Assembly (NCBI RefSeq): GCF_965363235.1
Contig: NC_134841.1
Coordinates: 60,719,078 to 60,783,077 of the forward strand
Source: Mytilus galloprovincialis
Taxonomy: Eukaryota > Mollusca > Bivalvia > Mytilida > Mytilidae
Length of the DNA stretch: 64,000 nucleotides
Direction: 5' to 3'
In this document: piece after piece, positions 16,941 to 57,052 of the stretch
How positions within the stretch are numbered: the first letter of the stretch is position 1
Layout: the number at the start of each line of letters is the position of its first letter
Notes under the pieces: generated by a model
What the model saw: the letters and a program-made list of their open reading frames with translations, nothing else
The model's database searches: none
What the model was told of the DNA's origin: nothing
Translations under genes and position numbers: made by a program

Positions 16941-19900
16941 GCTCACCTGGCCCGAAGGACCAAGTGAGCTTTTCCCATCACTTGGCGTCCGGCGTCAATC
17001 GTCTGTCGTCCGTCGTCCGGCGTTAACTTTTACAAAAATCTTCCTCTCTGAAACTACTGGGCCAAATTTAACCAAACTTGGCCACAATCATCATTGGGGT
17101 ATCTAGTTTAAAAAATGTGTTCGGTGACCCGGTCAACCAACCAAGATGGCCGCAATGGCTAAACATAGAACATAGGGGTAAAATGTGGTTTTTAGCTTAT
17201 AACTTAAAAACCAAAACATTTAGAGCAAATCTGACATGGGGGTTAAATTGTTCATCAGGTCAAGATCTATCTGCCCTGAAATTTTCAGATGAATCGGACA
17301 ACCTGTTGTTGGGTTGCTGCCCCTGAATTGGTAATTTTATGGAAATTTTACTGTTTTTGTTTATTATCTTGAATATAATTATAGATAGAGATGAACTGTA
17401 AACAGCAATAATGTTCAGCAAAGTAAGATTTACAAATAAGTCAACATGACTGAAATGGTCAGTTGACTTTAGGAGTTATTGCCCTTTATAGTCAATTTTT
17501 AAACATTTTTCGTAAATTTTAGTAATCTTTTACAAAACTCTTCTCCTCTGAAACTACTGGGCCAAATTAATCCAAACTTGGCCACAATCATCATTGGGGT
17601 ATCTAGTTTGAAAAATGTGTCCAGTGACCCGGTCAACCAACCAAGATGGCCGCCATGGCTAAAAATAGAACATAGGGGTAAAATGCAGTTTTTAGCTTAT
17701 AACTCAAAAACCAAAGCATTTAGAGCAAATCTAACAAGAGGTAAAATTGTTTATCAGGTCAAGATCTATCTGCCCTTAAATTTTCAGATGAATCGGACAA
17801 CCTGTTGTTGGGTTGCTGCCCCTGAATTGGTAATTTTAAGGAAATTTTACAGTTTTTGATTATTATCTTGAATATTATTATAGATAGAGATAAATTGTAA
17901 ACAGCAATAATGTTCAGCAAAGTAACCAAAATGGTCAGTTGACCTATATAGGAGTTATTTCCCTTTATAGTAAATTTTTAACCATTTTTCGTAAATCTTA
18001 GTAATCTTTTACAAAAATCATCTCCTCTGAAACTACTGGGCCAAATTAATCCAAACTTGGCCACAATCATCTGTGGGGTATCTAGTTTTAAAAATGTGTC
18101 CGGTGACCTGGATATCCAACCAAGATGGCTGCCATGGATAAAAATAGAACATGTCCTGGGTAAAATGCAGTTTTTGGCTTATAACTCAAAAACCAAAGCA
18201 TTTAGAGCAAATCTGACATGGGGTAAAATTGTTAATCAGGTCAAGATCTTTCTGCCCTGAAATTTTCAGATGAATTGGACAACCCATTACTCTCACGACA
18301 CTTACCAAAGAGGAAATCCTGGATAATCATAGGTCTGTTCTATGTTCCTTTGGAATTTCAACCAAAGATGAAGAACTGGATCTTCCATCACTGTATTGGA
18401 TACCTAAACTACATAAGTGTCCTTACAAACAACGGTATATTGCTGGGTCTTCCAAGTGCTCCACGAAACCTCTTTCTAAATTATTAACATCTATTTTATC
18501 AGCAATCAAAGACGGGCTTCAAAGTTATTGTGAAACTGCCTATTCTAGAGGTGGCGTGAATCAGATGTGGATACTTAAAAATTCAAAAGATCTTTTAGAG
18601 TACATACAATCTAACTCTCTTTCATCTTGTAACAGTATTAAAACATTTGACTTTTCTACTCTGTACACAAGTATTCCACATTCCAAACTAAAAAAAATTG
18701 AAAGAGTTGGTATTACTTTGCTTCATAAAAAAGAATGGTCAACGTAGATACAAGTATCTTGTCTTAGGGAGGGATAAATCCTACTTTGTAAAGAATCACT
18801 CTGATTCAAATAAAAAATTCTCTGAAACTGATATTATCAAGATGCTTGATTTCTTGATTGACAACATATTTGTTACGTTCAGAGGACGTGTTTTTCAACA
18901 GACTGTCGGCATTCCAATGGGAACAAACTGCGCCCCTCTACTCGCCGACTTGTTTCTTTATTATTATGAGGCTGACTTCATGCAGGAACTTCTTAGGAAG
19001 AAAGATAAGAAGTTAGCAATATCCTTTAACTCTACTTTCCGCTATATAGATGATGTTCTTTCACTAAACAATTCAAAATTTGGTGACTATGTGGAACGCA
19101 TCTATCCAATCGAACTAGAGATAAAGGATACTACAGATACAGTTAAGTCAGCTTTATATCTTGACCTACATCTAGAAATTGACAATGAGGATCGGTTGAA
19201 AACAAAACTTTACGACAAAAGAGATGATTTCAGCTTTCCAATTGTGAACTTCCCATTTCTAAGTAGCAACATTCCAGCAGCACCTGCATACGGGGTATAT
19301 ATCTCCCAATTGATACGATATTCTCGTGCTTGCATTTCCTATCATGATTTTCTTGATAGATGTTTGCTGCTCACAAGGAAGCTATTAAACCAAGAGTTCC
19401 AAATGGTGAAGTTGAAATCATCCCTTCGTAAATTTTACAGACGCCATCACGAGTTGGTTGACCGTTATGGAATAACCGTTTCACAAATGATATCGGATAT
19501 GTTCCTTACGTCGTAACTACAATCCCCTTCCCTTTTATGAATATGACCTACCGAATTTGACTATTTACCGGATTTGTAATCACATAATCAACACGACGGG
19601 TGCCACATTAGGAGCAGGATCTGCTTACCCTTCCGGAGCACCTGAGATCACCCCTAGTTTTTGGTGGGGTTCGTGTTGTTTATTCTTTAGTTTTCTATGT
19701 TGTGTCGTGTGTACTATTGTTTTTCTGTTTGTCTTTTTTCATTTTTAGCCATGGCGTTGTCAGTTTGTTTTGGATTTATGAGTTTGACTGTCCCTTTGGT
19801 ATCTTTCGTCCCTCTTGAATATTATTATAGATAGAGATAAACTGTAAACAGCAATAATGTTCAGCAAAGTAAGATTTACAAATAAGTCAACATGATTGAA

Positions 19901-23881: not shown

Positions 23882-26800
23882 TTAACTATTTCTACTATAA
23901 GCAAACAATCCCAAAGATAAACCACCAATAACAGAAGCACCAACAACTAATGGGTTGCTCTTGACACAATCAATAACCTTATCCGCCATATTTTTGTGGA
24001 CATATTTGGTATTGTTATTTCCAACGTCTATGTTAGGATCAGTATTTTCTACTTTCTGTTGTTGTACTGAAGAACTTGTCTCTGTGGTATTTATTTTAGC
24101 AATGTCTGCACTTTTTTGCTCATTAAATGATTGAAGCGCATTGTTTTCTATTGACATGATTGAAAACGGCTCTGTGTTGCAGTAAGTGTTAGGTGAAGAT
24201 TTGTCAGTGAAGATCTGTTTTTCCATTCTTATGTCTTTATCGTACTCTCCATTCTGAATCAGAACATTTGGTTTTTCTGTCTCTTGTTGTGGAATGTTTT
24301 CAGGGATATGATGTGATGCATGATTTGCTGATCTTAATGATTTAAATTCCCTTTCATCTTGAGTACTGAATCTTGTTTCTAGAGACGATACTCCATCTGT
24401 TTCAATACTCTGAAACATATCACCAACTTCTGTTGGTGTTTTGCTAACATCTGTCCTATGATATAAGACTGTTTCTTTAATGTCACATGATTTTCTTTCC
24501 TGGATGTCCATGAATGGCTCCTCAGGATCAAAAATTAATCCTGGTTTCTCTGACTCTTGTGTTATGAATTTATAATTCAATAATTTTTCTAGATCACACA
24601 TGATATCTTTCCTTTCCATGAAATCTAAAGCTTTGAAAAGGTTTTCTAAAGTAGCTTGAACTGGCTTATCCCCATTAGACCAGTTGGCTATTAACTTTTC
24701 TGTACAACTTGTTGATGTGGTCTGAAGTAACTGGACTTCCTCAACAGTATAATCTGTAAAATAAAGGAGTCATACATTCATTATCAATCTGATTAAAATA
24801 CAGATCCTGTGTCCATGCTATAGTGTCTTTTTAAATATATAACATCAATCAGTGAAGAATGGATACAGGATATATATATTAATCAGATAGCTATTAACTA
24901 TTATTAAAGTCACACTAAAGTGATTTTTAGTCCTTATACAGATTTTTTTTTAAAAGACCGTTTATTATGGTAGATTTTAATCCAGTTGGGTCCCCATGCT
25001 GTAAAAAATTTAAATATTTTACTATGGGTATTGTTTTTTATCAACTATATGGAAAAAAATCAAACTTGTTAATGTGCTTAAAAATAAATCCTTTAAGGAG
25101 GCTCGAGGGTACAAAATTTCAGCAAAAAATTTAAAGATTTGTTTTTTCTTTACAAATTTTATTTATTACACTTTTAGTTATTACTTTATAATATGGTACA
25201 AAAATCAACCAACAAAATCGATTTGGTTTGGCCCCAGATGACTTTTAAAATGTTTATATCATTGAGAAAGCTCCAAATTATCTCCCTTTGGTGCGAAAAT
25301 GCTATTTTTTGGCATTAAAACTGAAATATCTTTTTTAATTCATCAGTGACCTATATTTTTTATTATTTTTGTTGGAACTCATAAATATACAGTAGTTGAA
25401 CTTCTAGTACCAAGTTGCAATACTGTAAATAACATTACCAAGAAAGTCCGCAAGATCCTTCCACTTTTCCTCAAAATCTAATATATGCAATTTTTTCATC
25501 ACTGAAAATGGTAAATGTCTTAGTTGTGTTGCTCCATTGTATATAGGTGGTGTTGTTGCCTCCGTTACTTGTCTAAGCTGTGTTGCTCCATTGCAAATTG
25601 GTCGTTGCATCGTCTCTGTAACTTTTATAGCTTTTGTATCTGATGCTGGATGTTCCCATCTCTTTTCTGACATTAAAAAGAAATATAAAGATGTCTTTCG
25701 AGATTCCATATATATTAAATCTAAATTCTTAAAGTATTATCATTTTAAAAAAAACTGTACAAGATGGTTTTGTTTTATTAATTTTCTGAGTACACTATTT
25801 AGCAATAATGATTGTTTTACCTTAAATGTATACCATGTATACAATATGAATTTAAAAAAAAAGACATGGCATATATGTCAGTGAGAGCAATTGAACAAAA
25901 CTTTCTTGCAAGAGACAAACGCAATGAAAGTAGCACTGTAATATTACAACATGAACTAAAATTTGGACTTTTAAATTTGATTATACTGAAATGCATGTAA
26001 ACACTTTTATGTTTTGTTTTGTCTTGTTGAGTTAACAAATATACATTGTATTTTCAATTAAAATGCTTCAAGAATATGTATCAATAGGACAACATTCAAT
26101 TTTTGGTATAGTACATACATATTGTATTTTTGTATAGTATTTTTGTATTTTATATGTCATTTATGTACAACGCCATTGAATACATATTGTATATGTAGAA
26201 ATAGGCGTTTAATTAAGTTTTCATGTTTCATGTTTCAACATGCCTCACTGTACATTTTCTGAGAACTGATAAATATTGGTCAAAATCCCGATTTTGCATA
26301 TATATATATTAAACAGTTTACTAAATAGTGAACATGTGTACCTGTATATTAAATTTCAATCAGATGTAATTATAAACTACAAAGATTCAATTGTTTTTTC
26401 TAAAACGTCACTTTTTCTCCATTCACAAGCCAAATTAATTCAGGCCAGGCAAACTGCGCACAGTCTGAAATTTTAACAGGCCACATAAAGTCGCAAAAAA
26501 AACAATTCAGTAAGGAAAGTGTTAAACCAAAAGTGGAACCTATCACATTTCCATATTGAGCATGTTCAGTGAACTATGACATATAGGTCAAAACCCTAAT
26601 TAGACATATACATTAAACAGTACCCCTCATAATAAATGTGTGTACTAAGTTTCAAGTTGAATTAACCACAAAATACCTTAAACAAAACTTTTGACCTACA
26701 TTAAATTTTAACTTGAACCTGACCCAAGACAGACGAAAGGACAGTTGGACACAAAGACCAGAAAACAAAAAACTACTCTACCATCATAGTCAAACATGAA

Positions 26801-27658
26801 AAAAAGGAGACTGTGATTTAATCATTGATTTTACCTGTATCCAGTAAATGATTAGGATCTAACATGTCTGCCAAATCTGTTTGACAAATTTCAGGATCTC
26901 TTAATGCCTTTATGAACTCTATCAAACATTTATCTTGTTGTCGAATCCTTTTCAGTAAATGTTGCGTAGCCATTCTTTCCCCCTTGTTGTTTTGTTCACA
27001 TTTAATTTCTTGCTGCAAAAGAAAAAAAAAAATATTGTGTAAATCACCTCCACTGATTTATTATCATAATTATGGTAGAAAATTTGAAAATATTTAAAAA
27101 AAAAAAAAAAAAATGAAAGGAATGTTCAAAGCCTATAATATTTGAAAACCAAGAATGTGTAAGAACTGAATTAATGAATAGCTTTATGATAATAAAAAAA
27201 AGAAAATACCATCCAAATAAGTGCTGTCTCCTTTAAATATGATTCAATTGAATATATTAGCTGAAACAGGTTTATATGGATCCAACATTTTTTGTCCAAG
27301 GCTGTCTGCTGGCTCCAGAAGCAATGAAGCAGCCCATCCGATTTAATGACAAATATCTACTTTCCCATATGGGACGAGCTCTGTCAATCCACGTCCCCAG
27401 CTTGTCTGGCAAAACAGTCACTGAAGTTAGAGAAATGTCGACTAGCATTTTATATATAATCTAAATTTTCCACTTTACAATACTCAAAGAAAAACAAAAA
27501 GAAGGTACTTTGATTATATCATGTGACCTTCATCTTACCTTACTCATCTCTGACATACTGATAAGATGAGGTAATATTTCCACTGGATTTAACTTGGTAC
27601 TAAATAACACCTCCTCTCTCTGCAGTACTTTTAGGGCATGGCGTTTATCAAACATCAT
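23882..27658 (-). CDS. MAVS-like adaptor: CARD + death domain + C-terminal membrane anchor
   Basis: Coding exons 27658-27539, 27012-26835, 25666-25439 and 24753-23882; all have AG/GT borders and phases that join (1398 nt, 465 residues). The exon opens at a splice acceptor (27663) five bases before ATG. Residues 1-95 read as a CARD-type helical bundle (HALKVLQREEVLFSTKLNP... LLKRIRQQDKCLIEFIKAL). Residues about 157-232 read as a death domain (FEEKWKDLADFL, then LIANWSNGDKP, then MERKDIMCDLEKLL with the usual tryptophan). Residues 233-440 are low-complexity and hold PTEVGD (282-287) and PQQET (330-334), matching TRAF6 and TRAF2/3 motifs. Residues 442-461 are a hydrophobic helix followed by SRNS, a tail anchor. 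CARD plus tail anchor plus TRAF motifs is the plan of MAVS, the RIG-I pathway adaptor on mitochondria; CARD plus death domain also recalls CRADD. An NGATQLR phrase is repeated at residues 125-131 and 144-150. Confidence 0.82.
26275..26800 (-). repeat. Dispersed repeat family R4, diverged copy in intron
   Basis: Contains GTGTACTAAGTTTCAAGTTG and further phrases in the order of the copy at 22270-22575. It lies between the second and third coding exons of the MAVS-like gene. Confidence 0.5.
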
Positions 27659-37415: not shown

Positions 37416-38783
37416 TCAATGTTTGTTTGTTTATCAGTATTTCTGACTTAGTTGGTTGTGTCACTAGTATCTTTACCATCGACACTTACAAAATGAAATG
37501 ATATTACGAAATGCAAATCACAGAAATTAGTAGGAAACGGAATCCGATTTTAAAATTCAATTGAAGAAAATTTGTTTGGGTTAGTACAGTTGTCAATATA
37601 CCTTGTGATCTAATGAGAGCGTCCTGATCCTCTATTTTTTTTCTAAATTCGTGCTCTCGGCTGTCTCTGTATCATCATCTGATGTTGTCTTTATAATCTC
37701 ATTGCATTCTGTTGTTTCAATAACAGAAGTTCCGTCTGTTTCTGCAGGTGGCGTAATGAATGCGTCCTTGTCTTCTGTTCTTACACCGTTCGTATCTGCT
37801 ACCTCGGTACCAACATCTTCTGAAGTTGTTTTTATCATCTCATTGTTTGTTTCTTTTGTGTCAATAGAATGTCTCCCTGTTTCTGTCTTTAAGTCTTCCT
37901 TGAGTAGTTCTCTTCTATCTTTTTCTTCCGATTCCTTTATTCCTCTTTCGATGCATTCAAACTCATTAAGAGTAAATTTGAATTCGGCAACACTTTGCTT
38001 CGCTGGACAGAATTCTCTGCTAAAAATCGACATTTCTTTTTCATCAAACTTGTCCCCATATCTGTACCTTCCTTTAAGTACAATTGAAATGTGTTTTTTT
38101 TTGTAAAAACTGCGTACATACATCAAACAAAGAATCACTGTAAGCGGAATGCGGAAAATACAAAATTACAACGCAAAATTGTTTGGTATCAAACATCTAT
38201 CCACCATTTTCATTTCTTTTAAAACATTAGCTTGCTAAGGAGAAAGCATTATTGAATTTTAAAATTTTCCCCACATGAGGCATAAAGTAAAATTTACATT
38301 TTTGGTTATCGATATGAAAGACAAGCCGTGTACCAGGAACATACACTACATAAGCTGTGTTCAATGGTTTATATTGTGCCTAACATGACTAAACTAAGAC
38401 GTTAGAGAAAATCTAAAGTTTTCACTACCAACAGAGCAAGATGCAGGACTGAATGGCATGCGCAAATAAGTGAATTTCAATTAAATCATTACCTAATTCC
38501 TTTGCCAGTTCTGCTTCTCTGGCTTCTGCAACCAGTATAGCTTCCTCTAACTGCTCATATTTTTTAAGTGCCAACTCGAACTGAACTACTCTTATAATGC
38601 CCCTACAAAACCTGACCACAGCCTGCTGATTCGGCTCGTCATCCTTAAAGTTTGACATGTCCATATCTGTATAAAAAAGAATATATGTTAAGAATTTTTT
38701 TTAAATAAATACGTTGTAGTTAAAAACAAAAAAGATCAACACAAAATTAAAAAAAGTATTGGAAAACAGATTTAAAATTATTA

Positions 38784-40944: not shown

Positions 40945-42610
40945 GTCAACAAAGTTTAACTATATATATATATTGTTAGTATCATACTATAATTTATTCA
41001 CTGGAACAACACGAAATTTAGGAAAAATAGACTGTTATTGTTCTGAATGACTGAAAAAATATGGATCAACTCAATATTCTTTACATTCGGACGTGAAAGT
41101 TATTTATTTGTTGTTCATATTTATGTTGATGGATCCAATGTAACAACCATGGAAAACTGGCATTTGTGGAACAGTGTCATAGTTGCTGAACAACTCATTA
41201 AAGTTTATTCCAGAGAGCTGATTTCTGAACTCTGTCATTTGCGTTACTTGTGAAGTGGACGCCATTGTTGAGGATCTAGCCGAAGTGGGAAGTGCCAACG
41301 GTTGAACAGGCGAAGGTAATGTTAGTTGTTGATTTGGGGCAGGTAAGGCATTTGCATCAGGATCTCTTCCATTCATTGCAGCATCAATTATTTGTCCCAT
41401 TTGGAATTTTGCCTTGTCGGAAGTTCTTTGATATATTGCCAAACTCGACACACTTTTGTGGCCAGTGACAGACATAATTTGTGCATCAGCAAAGTACCTG
41501 CTTTCTGTAAGAATTGTTGCACCGGTCGCTCGAATTGAATGATTTGTGTAAACTTGTGATAATGAACAAAGTTTACTTAATTTATTCATAAATTGAGCCA
41601 AAGTGTCACGACCAACTGGAGAATTTACAGTACCAAGAAGCAGAATCTTCATAAAAGGATCCCAGTGGTCTTTGCCATAACCTTTTGCATTTAGGATGCA
41701 ATTTTGAAATGTATTTCTGAAAAGCTGCCACTGGACAGAACGGACTATCAGGTTGCTCTGGCATAATTGCAGTGACATTTTCCTTGTCATTGAAGCGGTG
41801 ATTTTTTGGTAAGTTCGTCCATTTCTTTTGTCACGTACTTTGTTTTTGTTTTTGGATCTGTTTTAACTATAAACGTGTCTTTTGTCATCTTATCCATATT
41901 TTCAGCCCCTCGTCTAAAGAAGTACATTCGTATGTCAAATTGTACCTTATTTAATAAACCAGTAGGGGAGTTTGTTTGCATAAAAGTTGAAGAGTACAAT
42001 TTTGTCCTGTCAATTTCTGATATTATTGGAAAGTGCTGTGTGGCTCCTTTTCCGTTGGCTTTTAATTCTGTAAGGGCGGTTTTAAATACTTGATTTGATT
42101 CATTAAAGGCTTCATGTTTCATAATGTCAAATTCCTTTAAAAAAGGGGGAGCCTTTAGATATCTATTTAGAGAGTATCGGAATGAACCCAGCGAATTTAC
42201 TTTATACATCTCTCCATCTGGTTTACGGGGGTCAAGATAAAAAAATTTCAGAACATCATTTAGCCGACCAGGCCCATACTGTTCAAACAGTGTGTCTTCA
42301 TTTTTCTCTGCGAGGTATTCTCGTAGTAAGTTACCAGCCCTTTTGTTTGCTTTTTCTGTTGATGACGCAATGTTTTTGATCTTTTGTCCAGAATTTCATT
42401 TTCTGTGTGAGAAGCAAAACGCTTTGCCATTTTCAATATGGACGCCGTCAGCGTATAAACGCGCGTGCCATCCCCCGGGTAAATGGATAGCAACGTCCGG
42501 GGATATGGGTTAGCAACACCCAGGGGCTATGGGTTTTGTAACGACGTGCGTTAACCAATGAAAATCCTAGATATATACTAAGCCGGGGATAAATACTCTT
42601 CTTATATATA
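40945..42610 (-). mobile_element. Decayed Crypton-type tyrosine recombinase element
   Basis: The minus strand encodes a DUF3504/Crypton-like protein in pieces: RFASHTENEILDKR, then FYLDPRKPDGEMYKVNSLG, then RYFADAQIMSVTGHKS. The tyrosine-recombinase residues are seen: HSIR (HxxR box) in YTNHSIRATGATIL and the late H...Y in TGHKSVSSLAIYQR. At least three frame changes spread it over different frames, so it is inactive. Edges are set by comparison with the duplication copy at about 49925-49945, which lacks it. It sits in the upstream region of the truncated gene copy. Domesticated relatives of this domain occur in ZMYM2, QRICH1 and KCTD1 type proteins, but the frame breaks argue against a host gene here. 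Confidence 0.8.
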
Positions 42611-45441: not shown

Positions 45442-48400
45442 TCACTTCTTTGAACATATCAAAGATCTAAATAAATCCTGTAATCTTTTGCCTATTGTGT
45501 TTTTCTTTTTTTCGTTGTTTATATTTCCTTTTCCATCATCTTTGAAATCTTTATCACTCTTGTCCATGTGTTCAAGAACTACCGGCATTTTTATCACGTG
45601 ACTGTCGTTTTTCACTTTTGATCCTTCTTTATTCTTCATTTCTGAATAAGATAAATATAGATTTAAAAAAGACATCAATCTAAGGGAGTGTGTAAGATTT
45701 GATACCTATACAGTATTAAAAACTGATATGTTATTCTCGAATTAGTACTATATTGATAGAACTTGATAAGACCAGAAAGAAAAATATATCTAAAAATAAG
45801 TTAATATTTTGATCTTTCATTTCGTTCTTTTATTCAATTCTTTCTTTTTCAGTTTCTTTTTGTTTCTTTTTCAGTCTCTTTGTTTCTTTTTCAGTTTCTT
45901 TTTGTTTTCCGAATAACCATATCAGAAAACAATCGAAGTATGATAATTAGTAGGTTGCAGAAAATACCTTTCTCTAATTTCTTTCTATCTTTCATTTCGT
46001 TCTTTTCAATTCTTGCTCGTTCCTTTTGTTCCTTTTTCAGTTTCTTTTTGTTTTCCTTCTCTTCTTTTTCCAGCTGTCTCTTGCTTTCCTTTTTGTATTT
46101 TTTCATCCTCCTATTGGCTATCTTTAAGTATTTCTTAAAGACCATTTCTTCTTCCTTTACCCTTTTCTTCTCCAATTTGGTTTCCTTTTTCGTCTTAAGA
46201 GTTTCTCCTTTTTCAATCTGTTCATTTTGTTTTTGTGATATACTTGGCTGAATTGTTTCCTGAAATGAAAGAATGTTATAGTCACACGTTGTAATGTACA
46301 GCGTACCTTTATTCGTCTTAATTCTAACGTTTGAATTGTCAAAATCTTATCTATTATGGATTTCATTTACTAGAATGTTCCGAAAGTAAGATTCTATTGG
46401 GGAAATAAACCAACGTTTCTTGTGTAATATTCGAACAAATGCAATTTAAAGTTTCGCCGGTGTTGTCACCAACTTAATTTCTGAATATCTCTAACATATT
46501 TATCCTGCTATTTATTTGTCTGTGTCTGTATAGGTGTACAATATGAGAGTTATACAAAAAGTGTTTTCTAGAATCCTAGCTCTCGATCAGTGTTAGGTAT
46601 CCGATAGTTGTGGTCAGACAGATAGTTTTGTTATTTGTTGACCTAGTCTACTCTTAACGGAGGGTAGTATACCTAATCCCAGTTCAGCTAGCAACCAAAG
46701 ATAAAACCTTTACCTACACACCCAAGGCATTTTGCAGTAAATTCTTATTCAGTGTTATTGTTGATAAGAGTGTACTAAGGTTTAGTGTCACTTACCCGGT
46801 ATTTGAAATTGATGAAATTCCTCGTAATGAAGGGGTTCACTGCAATTATTTTCCCACTCCTTTTTGGAATCAACGAACCTTAAAAATAAAAAACTCATTA
46901 TAAAATGTTTATTAAATATTATAGTCTGAAAGGGTAAATTAAAATATATGTTCAGAAAAAGACCCCAAAATACTATTACTACTATAATAATACTGCTACT
47001 ACAACCACTACTGAAGCTACAACACAACTGTCATATTTATATATCGATTAAAGCCGATTTCATTGAGTGTGTAGCTAAAGGTCATATCTTTGGTTAGCTT
47101 GCTTGCTTACTGAACCGTGAAGTCATTATAAGGTTAGGTAAACTACCTTCCATTAGAATAGACTAGTCCTACAGATAACCAATCTATCTGTCTGTAGGAC
47201 TAGGCTAGCTAGTAAGCAAGCTAACCAAAGATATTACCTTTACCTACACAGTCAATGAAATCGGCTGTAATACTTTACCTATAGAAAATATACAACAGAT
47301 CGTGAATCCATAAAAGGATACAGGAACCAGTCTAAGGTTATGCTATCAATTTTTAAATTGATTATCAGTTTTTCTGACTTAGTTGATTGTGTCACTAATT
47401 TCTTTACGATCGACACTTACAGAATGAAATAGTAATACGAAGTGCAAATCATAGAAATTAACAGTAAACAGAGTCCGATTTAAGAATTCAATTGAGAAAA
47501 ATTAGTTTGGCTTCGTGTAGTTATCAATATACCTGGTGTTATAGTGCAAGTACTGTCCTGGTCTACTGATGCTCTTAAATCTATCATCTCAGCTGCCTCT
47601 GTGTCAATTTCATCTGAGTTTGTCCTTGCAATCTCACTGTATGTTTCAGTTGTGTCGGTAGAATGTCTCTCGGTTTCTGTCTTTAATTCTTCCTCAAGTA
47701 TTTCTCTTCTATCCTTTTCTTCCGATTCCTTTATTTCCCTTGCGATGCATTCAAACTCATTAAGAGTAAATTTGAATTCAGCAACACTTTGCTTCGCTGG
47801 AGAAAATTCTCTGCTAAAAATCGACATTTCCTTTTCATCAAACTTGTCCCCATATCTGTACCTTCCTTTAAGTACAATAGAAAGTTTCTTTTGTAAAAAT
47901 TGCGTACATACAACAAACAAACAATAACTGTAAGCGGAATGCGGAAAATACAAAATGAAAACGCAAAATTGTTTGGTTTCAAACATCTATCCACCATTTT
48001 CTTTGCTTTTAAAACATTAGCTTGCTAAAGAGAAAGCATCATTGAATTTATAAATTTTCCCCACATGAGGCATACAGTTAAATTTACATTTTTATACGCC
48101 CGTTAAAATTTTGACGGGACGTATTATGGTATACAAATGTCCGGTGTTCGTCCGTCCGTCCGTCCGTCTGTCTGTCTGTCTGTCTGTCCGTCTGTCCGTC
48201 TGTCCGGCGTAAACATGTCGCACCGTAACTTGATAGCGACTTATCCAAATTTCATGAAACTTAATATAGTTGTTTCTTATGATGGTCAAATGATCTGTAT
48301 ACTTTTTGGTGAAAATAAGATTTATACTTTTTGAGTTACAGCACTTTATAACTAAAACAGGGGTGTGTTTTTTTCACATGTCGCACTGTATCTCAAAAAC

Positions 48401-50745: not shown

Positions 50746-53700
50746 CTTATGCTGCTCACATTCAGTGTATTGTATGGTATGTATAGTATTGGTGGTTACC
50801 TTATGCTGCTCACATTCAGTGTATTGTATGGTATGTATAGTATTGGTGGTTACCTTATGCTGCTCACATTCAGTGTATTGTATGGTATGTATAGTATTGG
50901 TGGTTACCTTATGCTGCTCACATTCAGTGTATTGTATGGTATGTATAGTATTGGTGGTTACCTTATGCTGCTCACATTCAGTGTATTGTATGGTATGTAT
51001 AGTATTGGTGGTTACCTTATGCTGCTCACATTCAGTGTATTGTATAGTATGTATAGTATTGGTGGTTACCTTATGCTGCTCACATTCAGTGTATTGTATG
51101 GTATGTATAGTATTGGTTATGTATAGTATTGGTTTCTTATGCTGCTCACATTCAGTGTATTGTATGGTATGTATAGTATTGGTGGTTACCTTATGCTGCT
51201 CACATTCAGTGTATTGTATGGTATGTATAGTATTGGTGGTTACCTTATGCTGCTCACATTCAGTGTATTGTATGGTATGTATAGTATTGGTGGTTACCTT
51301 ATGCTGCTCACATTCAGTGTATTGTATGGTATGTATAGTATTGGTGGTTACCTTATGCTGCTCACATTCAGTGTATTGTATAGTATGTATAGTATTGGTG
51401 GTTACCTTATGCTGCTCACATTCAGTGTATTGTATGGTATGTATAGTATTGGTGGTTACCTTATGCTGCTCACATTCAGTGTATTGCATGGTATGTATAG
51501 TATTGGTGGTTACTTTATGCTGCTCACAATTGTATGGTATATATAGTATTAGTGGTTACCTTATGCTGCTCACATTCCGTGTATTGTATAGTATGTATAG
51601 TATAAGTGGTTACCTTATGCTGCTCACATTCAGTGTATTATATGGTATGTTTAGTATTGGTGGTTACCTTATGCTGCTCACATTCAGTGTATTGTACGGT
51701 ATGTATAGTATTGGTGGTTACCTTATGCTGCTCAGATTCAGTGTACTGTATAGTATGTATAGTATTAGTGGTTACCTTATGCTGCTCACATTCAGTGTAT
51801 TATATGGTATGTATAGTATTGGTGGTTACTTTATGCTGCTCACATTCAGTGTATTGTACGGTATGTATAGTATTGGTGGTTACCTTATGCTGCTCACATT
51901 CAGTGTATTGTATGGTATGTATAGTATTGGTGGTTACCTTATGCTGCTCACATTCAGTGTATTGTATGGTATATATAGTATTGGTGGTTACCTTATGCTG
52001 CTCACATTCAGTGTATTGTATAGTATATATAGTATTGGTGGTTACCTTATGCTGCTCACATTCAGTGTATTGTATAGTATGTATAGTATTGGTGGTTACC
52101 TTATGCTCCTCACATTCCGTGTATTGTATGGTATGTATAGTATTGGTGGTTACCTTATGCTGCTCACATTCAGAATATTGTATAGTATATATAGTATTGG
52201 TGGTTACCTTATATATGCTGCTCACATTCAGTGTATTGTATGGTATGTATAGTATTGGTGGTTACCTTATGCTGCTCACATTCAGTGTATTGTATGGTAT
52301 GTATAGTATTAGTGGTTACCTTATGTTGCTCACATTCAGTGTATTGTATGGTATATATAGTATTGGTGATTACCTTATGCTGCTCACATTCCGTGTATTG
52401 TATGGTATGTATAGTATTGGTGGTTACCTTATGCTGCTCACATTCCGTGTATTGTATAGTATGTATAGTATAAGTGGTTACCTTATGCTGCTCACATTCA
52501 GTGTATTATATGGTATGTTTAGTATTGGTGGTTACCTTATGCTGCTCACATTCAGTGTATTGTACGGTATGCATAGTATTGGTGGTTACCTTATGCTGCT
52601 CAGATTCAGTGTATTGTATAGTATGTATAGTATTAGTGGTTACCTTATGCTGCTCACATTCAGTGTATTGTATGGTATATATAGTATTGGTGATTACCTT
52701 ATGCTGCTCACATTCCGTGTATTGTATTGTATGTATAGTATTGGTGGTTACCTTATGCTGCTCACATTCCGTGTATGGTATGGTATGTATAGTATTGGTG
52801 GTTACCTTATGCTGCTCACATTCAGTGTACTGTATGGTATGTATAGTATTGATGGTTACCTTATGCTGGTCACATTCCGTGTATTGTATGGTATGTATAG
52901 TATTGGTGGTTACCCTATGCTGCTCACATTCAGTGTATTGTATGGTATGTATAGTATTGATGGTTACCTTATGCTGTTCACATTCAGTGTATTGTATGGT
53001 ATGTATAGTATTGGTGGTTACCTTATGCTGCTCACATTCAGTGTATTGTATGGTATGTATAGTATTGATGGTTACCTTATGCTGGTCACATTCCGTGTAT
53101 TGTATGGTTTGTATAGTATTGGTGGTTACCTTATGCTGCTCACATTCAGTGTATTGCATGGTATGTATAGTATTGGTGGTTACCTAATGCTGCTCACAAT
53201 TGTATGGTATATATAGTATTAGTGGTTACCTTATGCTGCTCACATTCAGTGTATTGTATGGTATGTATAGTATTGGTGGTTACCTTATGCTGCTCACATT
53301 CAGTGTATTGCATGGTATGTATAGTATTGGTGGTTACCTTATGCTGCTCACAATTGCATGGTATATATAGAATTAGTGGTTACCTTATGCTGCTCACATT
53401 CAGTGTATTGTATGGTATGTATAGTATTGGTGGTTAGCTTATGCTGCTCACATTCAGTGTATTGTATGGTATGTATAGTATTGGTGGTTACCTTATGCTG
53501 CTCACATTCAGTGTATTGTATAGTATGTATAGTATTGGTGGTTACCTTATGCTGCTCACATTCAGTGTATTGTATGGTATGTATAGTATTGGTGGTTACC
53601 TTATGCTGCTCACATTCAGTGTATTGCATGGTATGTATAGTATTGGTGGTTACTTTATGCTGCTCACAATTGTATGGTATATATAGTATTAGTGGTTACC

Positions 53701-56700
53701 TTATGCTGCTCACATTCAGTGTATTATATGGTATGTATAGTATTGGTGGTTACTTTATGCTGCTCACATTCAGTGTATTGTACGGTATGTATAGTATTGG
53801 TGATTACCTTATGCTGCTCACATTCAGTGTATTGTATGGTATGTATAGTATTGGTGGTTACCTTATGCTGCTCACATTCAGTGTATTGTATGGTATGTAT
53901 AGTATTGGTGGTTACCTTATGCTGCTCACATTCAGTGTATTGTATAGTATGTATAGTATTGGTGGTTACCTTATGCTGCTCACATTCAGTGTATTGTATG
54001 GTATGTATAGTATTGGTGGTTACCTTATGCTGCTCACATTCAGTGTATTGCATGGTATGTATAGTATTGGTGGTTACTTTATGCTGCTCACAATTGTATG
54101 GTATATATAGTATTAGTGGTTACCTTATGCTGCTCACATTCAGTGTATTATATGGTATGTATAGTATTGGTGGTTACTTTATGCTGCTCACATTCAGTGT
54201 ATTGTACGGTATGTATAGTATTGGTGGTTACCTTATGCTGCTCACATTCAGTGTATTGTATAGTATGTATAGTATTGGTGGTTACCTTATGCTGCTCACA
54301 TTCAGTGTATTGTATGGTATGTATAGTATTGGTGGTTACCTTATGCTGCTCACATTCAGTGTATTGCATGGTATGTATAGTATTGGTGGTTACTTTATGC
54401 TGCTCACAATTGTATGGTATATATAGTATTAGTGGTTACCTTATGCTGCTCACATTCAGTGTATTATATGGTATGTATAGTATTGGTGGTTACTTTATGC
54501 TGCTCACATTCAGTGTATTGTACGGTATGTATAGTATTGGTGGTTACCTTATGCTGCTCACATTCAGTGTATTGTATGGTATGTATAGTATTGGTGGTTA
54601 CCTTATGCTGCTCACATTCAGTGTATTGTATGGTATATATAGTATTGGTGGTTACCTTATGCTGCTCACATTCAGTGTATTGTATAGTATATATAGTATT
54701 GGTGGTTACCTTATGCTGCTCACATTCAGTGTATTGTATGGTATGTATAGTATTGGTGGTTACCTTATGCTGCTCACATTCCGTGTATTGTATGGTATGT
54801 ATAGTATTGGTGGTTACCTTATGCTGCTCACATTCCGTGTATTGTATGGTATGTATAGTATTGGTGGTTACCTTATGCTGCTCACATTCAGAATATTGTA
54901 TAGTATATATAGTATTGGTGGTTACCTTATATATGCTGCTCACATTCAGTGTATTGTATGGTATGTATAGTATTGGTGGTTACCTTATGCTGCTCACATT
55001 CAGTGTATTGTATGGTATGTATATTATTGGTGGTTACCTTATGCTGCTCACATTCAGTGTATTGTATGGTATATATAGTATTGGTGATTACCTTATGCTG
55101 CTCACATTCCGTGTATTGTATGGTATGTATAGTATTGGTGGTTACCTTATGCTGCTCACATTCCGTGTATTGTATAGTATGTATAGTATAAGTGGTTACC
55201 TTATGCTGCTCACATTCAGTGTATTATATGGTATGTTTAGTATTGGTGGTTACCTTATGCTGCTCACATTCAGTGTATTGTACGGTATGTATAGTATTGG
55301 TGGTTACCTTATGCTGCTCAGATTCAGTGTATTGTATAGTATGTATAGTATTAGTGGTTACCTTATGCTGCTCACATTCAGTGTATTGTATGGTATATAT
55401 AGTATTGGTGATTACCTTATGCTGCTCACATTCCGTGTATTGTATTGTATGTATAGTATTGGTGGTTACCTTATGCTGCTCACATTCAGTGTATTGTATG
55501 GTATATATAGTATTGGTGATTACCTTATGCTGCTCACATTCCGTGTATTGTATGGTATGTATAGTATTGGTGGTTACCTTATGCTGCTCACATTCCGTGT
55601 ATTGTATAGTATGTATAGTATAAGTGGTTACCTTATGCTGCTCACATTCAGTGTATTATATGGTATGTTTAGTATTGGTGGTTACCTTATGCTGCTCACA
55701 TTCAGTGTATTGTACGGTATGTATAGTATTGGTGGTTACCTTATGCTGCTCAGATTCAGTGTATTGTATAGTATGTATAGTATTAGTGGTTACCTTATGC
55801 TGCTCACATTCAGTGTATTGTATGGTATATATAGTATTGGTGATTACCTTATGCTGCTCACATTCCGTGTATTGTATTGTATGTATAGTATTGGTGGTTA
55901 CCTTATGCTGCTCACATTCAGTGTATTGTATGGTATATATAGTATTGGTGATTACCTTATGCTGCTCACATTCCGTGTATTGTATTGTATGTATAGTATT
56001 GGTGGTTACCTTATGCTGCTCACATTCCGTGTATGGTATGGTATGTATAGTATTGGTGGTTACCTTATGCTGCTCACATTCAGTGTATTGTATGGTATGT
56101 ATAGTATTGATGGTTACCTTATGCTGGTCACATTCCGTGTATTGTATGGTATGTATAGTATTGGTGGTTACCCTATGCTGCTCACATTCAGTGTATTGTA
56201 TGGTATGTATAGTATTGATGGTTACCTTATGCTGTTCACATTCAGTGTATTGTATGGTATGTATAGTATTGGTGGTTACCTTATGCTGCTCACATTCAGT
56301 GTATTGTATGGTATGTATAGTATTGATGGTTACCTTATGCTGGTCACATTCCGTGTATTGTATGGTTTGTATAGTATTGGTGGTTACCTTATGCTGCTCA
56401 CATTCAGTGTATTGCATGGTATGTATAGTATTGGTGGTTACCTAATGCTGCTCACAATTGTATGGTATATATAGTATTAGTGGTTACCTTATGCTGCTCA
56501 CATTCAGTGTATTGTATGGTATGTATAGTATTGGTGGTTACCTTATGCTGCTCACATTCAGTGTATTGCATGGTATGTATAGTATTGGTGGTTACCTTAT
56601 GCTGCTCACATTCAGTGTATTGTATGGTATATATAGTACTGGTGGTTACCTTATGCTGCTCACATTCAGTGTATTGCATGGTATGTATAGTATTGGTGGT

Positions 56701-57052
56701 TACCTTATGCTGCTCACAATTGTATGGTATATATAGTATTAGTGGTTACCTTATGCTGCTCACATTCAGTGTATTGTATGGTATGTATAGTATTGGTGGT
56801 TACTTTATGCTGCTCACATTCAGTGTATTGTGTGGTATATATAGTACTGGTGGTTACCTTATGCTGCTCACATTCAGTGTATTGCATGGTATGTATAGTA
56901 TTGGTGGTTACCTTATGCTGCTCACAATTGTATGGTATATATAGTATTAGTGGTTACCTTATGCTGCTCACATTCAGTGTATTGTATGGTATGTATAGTA
57001 TTGGTGGTTACCTTATGCTGCTCACATTCAGTGTATTATATGGTATATATAT
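50746..57052. repeat. Satellite, 54-bp unit, about 117 copies
   Basis: Unit begins CTTATGCTGCTCACATTCAG and ends ATTGGTGGTTAC; successive starts at 50746 and 50800 give 54 bases. Variants include TATAGTATG for TATGGTATG, CCGTGTATTG for CAGTGTATTG, and a shortened unit with CTCACAATTGTATGG that recurs at about 51527, 53200, 53352, 53668, 54090, 54408, 56452, 56720 and 56928. Long open frames on both strands follow from the unit being 18 codons; they are not evidence of genes. Confidence 0.97.

Follow-up and report, generated by a model that had tools for sequence, protein, structure and literature searches.

The question raised by this locus is whether mussels encode the antiviral adaptor MAVS and, if so, on which domain plan it is built. 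A 2012 transcriptome study of Mytilus edulis did not identify MAVS, whose known range then extended only from vertebrates to sea urchin (PMC3308963), and the sea hare Aplysia has been reported to be without it (PMC9334734). In oysters the adaptor has been described: CgMAVS of Crassostrea gigas (KY630189) was cloned in 2017 (Huang and others 2017; PMC5557890), the Sydney rock oyster transcriptome contains one MAVS according to a study that also cites a connection between oyster MAVS and the expression of TRAF3 (PMC4892480), and a review repeats that the oyster encodes MAVS (PMC6723221). A search of openly accessible papers found none on a mussel MAVS. The gene considered here lies in Mytilus galloprovincialis, in a window (the whole stretch of DNA analysed, 64,000 nucleotides) that corresponds to C4:60719078-60783077 of the genome; it very probably encodes a bivalve MAVS, apparently single-copy, orthologous to CgMAVS and acting as an adaptor of RIG-I-like receptors (RLRs).

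The gene occupies positions 27658-23882 of the window as four minus-strand exons with GT-AG borders, which join in phases 0/1/1 to give a 465-residue product, as the first-pass annotation had modelled it. Coding exon 1 (27539..27658) specifies residues 1-40, the first part of a CARD, and is followed by a GT donor after 27539; exon 2 (26835..27012), bordered by an AG acceptor and a GT donor, adds residues 41-99 and the first base of codon 100, with the rest of the CARD. Exon 3 (25439..25666) carries a linker and the start of a death domain, and exon 4 (23882..24753) most of the death domain, an acidic linker, the tail anchor and the stop codon TAA (23884-23882). An acceptor-like site stands five bases upstream of the first ATG and thereby suggests an intron in the 5' untranslated region.

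Domains, tail and their nearest relatives

The predicted protein was compared with Pfam, which listed five families at E<=10, two of them over their cut-offs and the other three below. The first is CARD_2 (PF16739) at residues 11-82 (E=4.8e-10; 39.7 bits against a cut-off of 28.2), the sole CARD family of the five, which we take to represent the RIG-I/MAVS type of CARD; the N-terminal CARD is thus of the type found in MAVS. The second is Death (PF00531) at residues 164-231 (E=6.2e-9; 36.3 bits against 22.6). In nucleotide coordinates derived from the exon model, the CARD spans 26887..27628 on the minus strand, interrupted by intron 1, and the death domain 24587..25475 on the same strand, interrupted by intron 3. 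The eight most hydrophobic 19-residue windows all fall within residues 435-463, with the maximum (Kyte-Doolittle mean 1.76) at residues 444-462 (23894..23950, minus strand), followed by RNS and the stop codon; this predicted hydrophobic helix would be the single C-terminal tail anchor expected of a MAVS. The first-pass annotation had read the same plan from the letters (CARD, death domain, linker and C-terminal hydrophobic helix) and had asked for a Pfam profile check; the profiles and the hydropathy scan agree with that plan.

Like vertebrate MAVS (IPS-1/VISA/Cardif), the protein combines an N-terminal CARD of RIG-I/MAVS type with a C-terminal membrane segment; it differs in carrying a death domain where the vertebrate protein has a proline-rich region. 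Proline makes up 8.9% of residues 100-155 and 5.1% of residues 241-435, so that a proline-rich region of the vertebrate kind was not found after the CARD, and the linker is acidic. Vertebrate MAVS engages IRF3 through a pLxIS motif; the mussel protein has no pLxIS-like motif, the pattern [LVIMF]xIS being absent from all 465 residues. The protein was also scanned with patterns of TRAF-binding motifs. PxExx[FYWDE] occurs once, at residue 282, where chance alone would give 0.24 in the linker (P=0.22). PxQx[TSD] occurs at residue 330 and, within the death domain, at residue 206, and [PSAT]x[QE]E at residues 39, 178 and 330, of which one falls in the linker, where 0.84 would be expected. The linker's TRAF6 and TRAF2/3 motifs do not exceed chance. 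Single-sequence structure prediction gave models too poor for use, with a mean pLDDT of 34.2 over the full protein and of 47.4 for the isolated death domain, which was modelled as six helices, and a Foldseek search with the poorly predicted death domain returned 21 matches, none better than E=3.2, of which some were death domains or CARDs and many were neither.

The kind of CARD was assessed against sequences of solved structures in the PDB. The CARD alone matched nine entries at E<=10, seven of them MAVS CARDs (E 0.054-1.3, non-significant individually); the other two were Glr1262, an unrelated protein that ranked first by E (0.043) and had no stretch passing alone, and AdeS. RIG-I, MDA5 and CRADD/RAIDD were not among these nine. 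With the full protein, four of eight matches were MAVS CARDs (E 0.39-0.49). As controls, three further CARDs from this genome were compared in the same way. One from the C4 receptor cluster described below (L002) matched MDA5 (2.9e-5), then CARD9 and RIG-I, with MAVS in none of its 22 matches; the second (L004) matched RIG-I (2.5e-4), with MAVS last of four at E 1.3; the third, from C11 (L013), which had 41 matches, went to APAF-1 (9.6e-6). Because the controls went to MDA5, RIG-I and APAF-1, the comparison separated kinds of CARD in those three cases, and the mussel CARD would group, by a weak preference, with MAVS among solved structures. The death domain alone gave 15 matches, several to unrelated proteins and all weak, led by p75NTR (0.021), THO complex subunit 1 (0.058) and NRADD (0.14).

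CRADD/RAIDD consists of a CARD followed by a death domain, without a membrane anchor; the mussel protein shares that order and adds the C-terminal hydrophobic helix. A tail-anchored adaptor of CRADD or apoptotic type, with no role downstream of RLRs, would therefore account for the CARD and death domain, and the weak structural matches of the latter (p75NTR, THO subunit 1, NRADD) show no antiviral tie. We nevertheless regard this reading as improbable: CARD_2 is the only CARD family that Pfam reports, the CARD's PDB matches comprise seven of nine to MAVS and none to CRADD/RAIDD, and an oyster protein built on this plan binds the CARDs of RIG-I-1 (PMC5557890). The MAVS-like reading given by the first-pass annotation is instead borne out by the CARD_2 and Death matches, the hydrophobic C-terminal segment and the weak leaning of the CARD towards MAVS.

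Joining of the four exons

The CARD_2 match crosses the junction of exons 1 and 2 (residues 40/41) and the Death match that of exons 3 and 4 (codon 176), so both of these joins are supported by the domains themselves. The junction of exons 2 and 3 (codon 100), which connects the CARD half to the Death half, falls in the linker, outside both domain matches; the predicted splice is supported here by the matching phase, the splice signals and the precedent of CgMAVS. A mistaken union of two genes, one CARD-only (exons 1 and 2) and the other a death-domain membrane protein (exons 3 and 4), would be compatible with this position of the junction and with the one-in-three chance of phase agreement alone, but is improbable, given that both sides of the 1.2-kb intron lie on the same strand in phase 1 with GT-AG borders and that cloning in the oyster yielded CARD, Death and transmembrane domains in one protein (PMC5557890).

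The oyster precedent and a proposed function

CgMAVS has an N-terminal CARD, then a Death domain, then a C-terminal transmembrane domain, and its Death domain is described as unlike the proline-rich domains that MAVS has in human and zebrafish (PMC5557890). The mussel protein, in a gene model whose exon 2/3 splice is predicted, has the same order, with the death domain in the place of the proline-rich region; the likeness is one of architecture, function having been studied in the oyster alone. The CARD-Death-transmembrane architecture is thus already described in the oyster, of which the mussel gene is a further example, and the novelty implied by the first-pass annotation for a MAVS plan with a death domain falls away, since CgMAVS was published with this order in 2017 (PMC5557890). 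Orthology to CgMAVS is likely in view of the shared architecture. The oyster type of MAVS, with CARD, death domain and anchor, would then be no peculiarity of oysters and is probably shared more widely among bivalves, and the gene would supply the adaptor that the 2012 M. edulis transcriptome study missed (PMC3308963).

Functional data come from the oyster. The binding of CgMAVS to the CARDs of CgRIG-I-1 is lost without the transmembrane segment, self-association likewise depends on that segment, TRAF6 is recruited and TRAF3 is not, and knockdown of CgMAVS leads to higher mortality from OsHV-1 (PMC5557890). A later report found that CgMAVS does not bind IKKalpha/beta-2 directly, the IKKs binding TRAF6 (PMC6685332). 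The first report also gives the localisation of CgMAVS as cytoplasmic in general terms and not as mitochondrial, finds that full-length oyster RIG-I-1 and MAVS do not interact, and states that CgMAVS alone did not activate human IFN-beta and ISRE promoters and lowered CgIRF-driven activation (PMC5557890). The cytoplasmic localisation, the non-interacting full-length proteins and the promoter data are at odds with a simple vertebrate model.

On the basis of the oyster data and of RLR-type genes in the same genome, the mussel protein may be placed downstream of RLRs. A RIG-I-like receptor bound to viral RNA would present its CARDs to the N-terminal CARD of mussel MAVS, which would then self-assemble on the membrane holding the C-terminal anchor, presumably the outer membrane of the mitochondria, as in vertebrates. 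Clustered mussel MAVS would recruit TRAF6 and so switch on NF-kB and IRF-driven genes, and the death domain could offer a second docking surface for putative death-domain partners. In mammals, MAVS is said to act together with TRADD, FADD and RIP1, all of them death-domain proteins (PMC4892480). As a tentative extension, which we consider rather doubtful, the death domain in cis might do what vertebrate MAVS achieves by borrowing these proteins, so that one membrane-anchored bivalve protein would unite the antiviral alarm with a death-domain pathway leading to cell death or NF-kB; if so, a single RLR signal could both trigger inflammation and send the infected cell into apoptosis. Some lophotrochozoan RLRs are reported to have N-terminal death domains (PMC8998645), and death domains may have spread through the RLR-MAVS pathway. 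The accessible portions of the bivalve MAVS literature contained no functional test of the death domain, and its role becomes open to study in a second bivalve.

Genomic surroundings

The genome searched comprises 1.38 Gb in 331 contigs, and all matches to CARD_2, RIG-I_C-RD, Death and the mussel protein fell on contigs C1-C14. A whole-genome search with the protein gave 15 matches, among them its own four exons (E 1.1e-15 to 1.5e-190); the remaining 11 were confined to the CARD end, with E values no better than 0.0385. There is no second strong match, and the MAVS gene is apparently single-copy in this genome. Six-frame searches, which miss domains split by introns and from whose CARD_2 and Death lists the MAVS gene itself is absent, yielded 35 matches to CARD_2 and 13 to RIG-I_C-RD. 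At C4:35.68-35.87 Mb about four putative RIG-I-like receptor genes stand in tandem, in a cluster that holds four of the RIG-I_C-RD and eight of the CARD_2 matches. These four RIG-I_C-RD matches lie on the 3' side of same-strand CARD_2 matches, the layout expected for RLR genes, so receptors of the kind that a MAVS needs appear to be present. Contig C9 has six more RIG-I_C-RD matches and none of the 35 CARD_2 matches.

A second MAVS gene was sought as a Death match on the same strand within 20 kb of a CARD match. Such a neighbour was found for four of the 35 CARD_2 matches and for two of ten CARD matches from BLAST, an eleventh weak BLAST match (C4:35712050) having been left out as a duplicate of a CARD_2 place. 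The count took in 80 of 150 Death matches; the other 70 lie on C3, C8, C9 and C12, which carry none of these CARD matches, or on C6, where their positions (72 and 100 Mb) are distant from the one CARD match of that contig in these sets, at 38 Mb. All six pairs run from Death to CARD, and were rejected as second MAVS genes for this reversed order.

Three of the death-then-CARD places were viewed frame by frame. L024 (C11:1565500-1574500) has a death-type frame followed by one CARD-like frame; in L025 (C7:97145000-97154900) and L026 (C11:86119000-86127500) the death-type frame precedes two CARD-like frames, the first of them judged by eye. These C7 and C11 loci form a multi-copy group, and the CARD of L013, a comparable place on C11, resembles that of APAF-1. 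As in mussel MAVS, CARD and death domains lie close together, whereas their order is reversed.

Within the 64-kb window itself, an Rfam scan at gathering scores returned no matches. A reverse-transcriptase-like stretch in two overlapping frames lies at 18274-19516 on the plus strand (RVT_1, E=0.00079, below cut-off); its letters recall what we take to be Penelope-like elements, and a frame judged by eye to resemble it ends L026. Frames resembling a tyrosine recombinase occupy 41104-42395 on the minus strand (Phage_integrase, E=4.3e-6, at cut-off, with a weak match to DUF3504), perhaps part of an element of the Crypton type or related to it. One reading frame is present in two diverged copies, at 37632-38165 and 47480-47986 on the minus strand, which stand about 10 kb apart and both contain GRYRYGDKFDEKEMSIFSREF; neither has a Pfam match over cut-off. 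A 6.3-kb minisatellite at 50746-57051 consists of a 54-bp unit repeated about 118 times with 91% matches, and leaves long open stretches in several frames on both strands.
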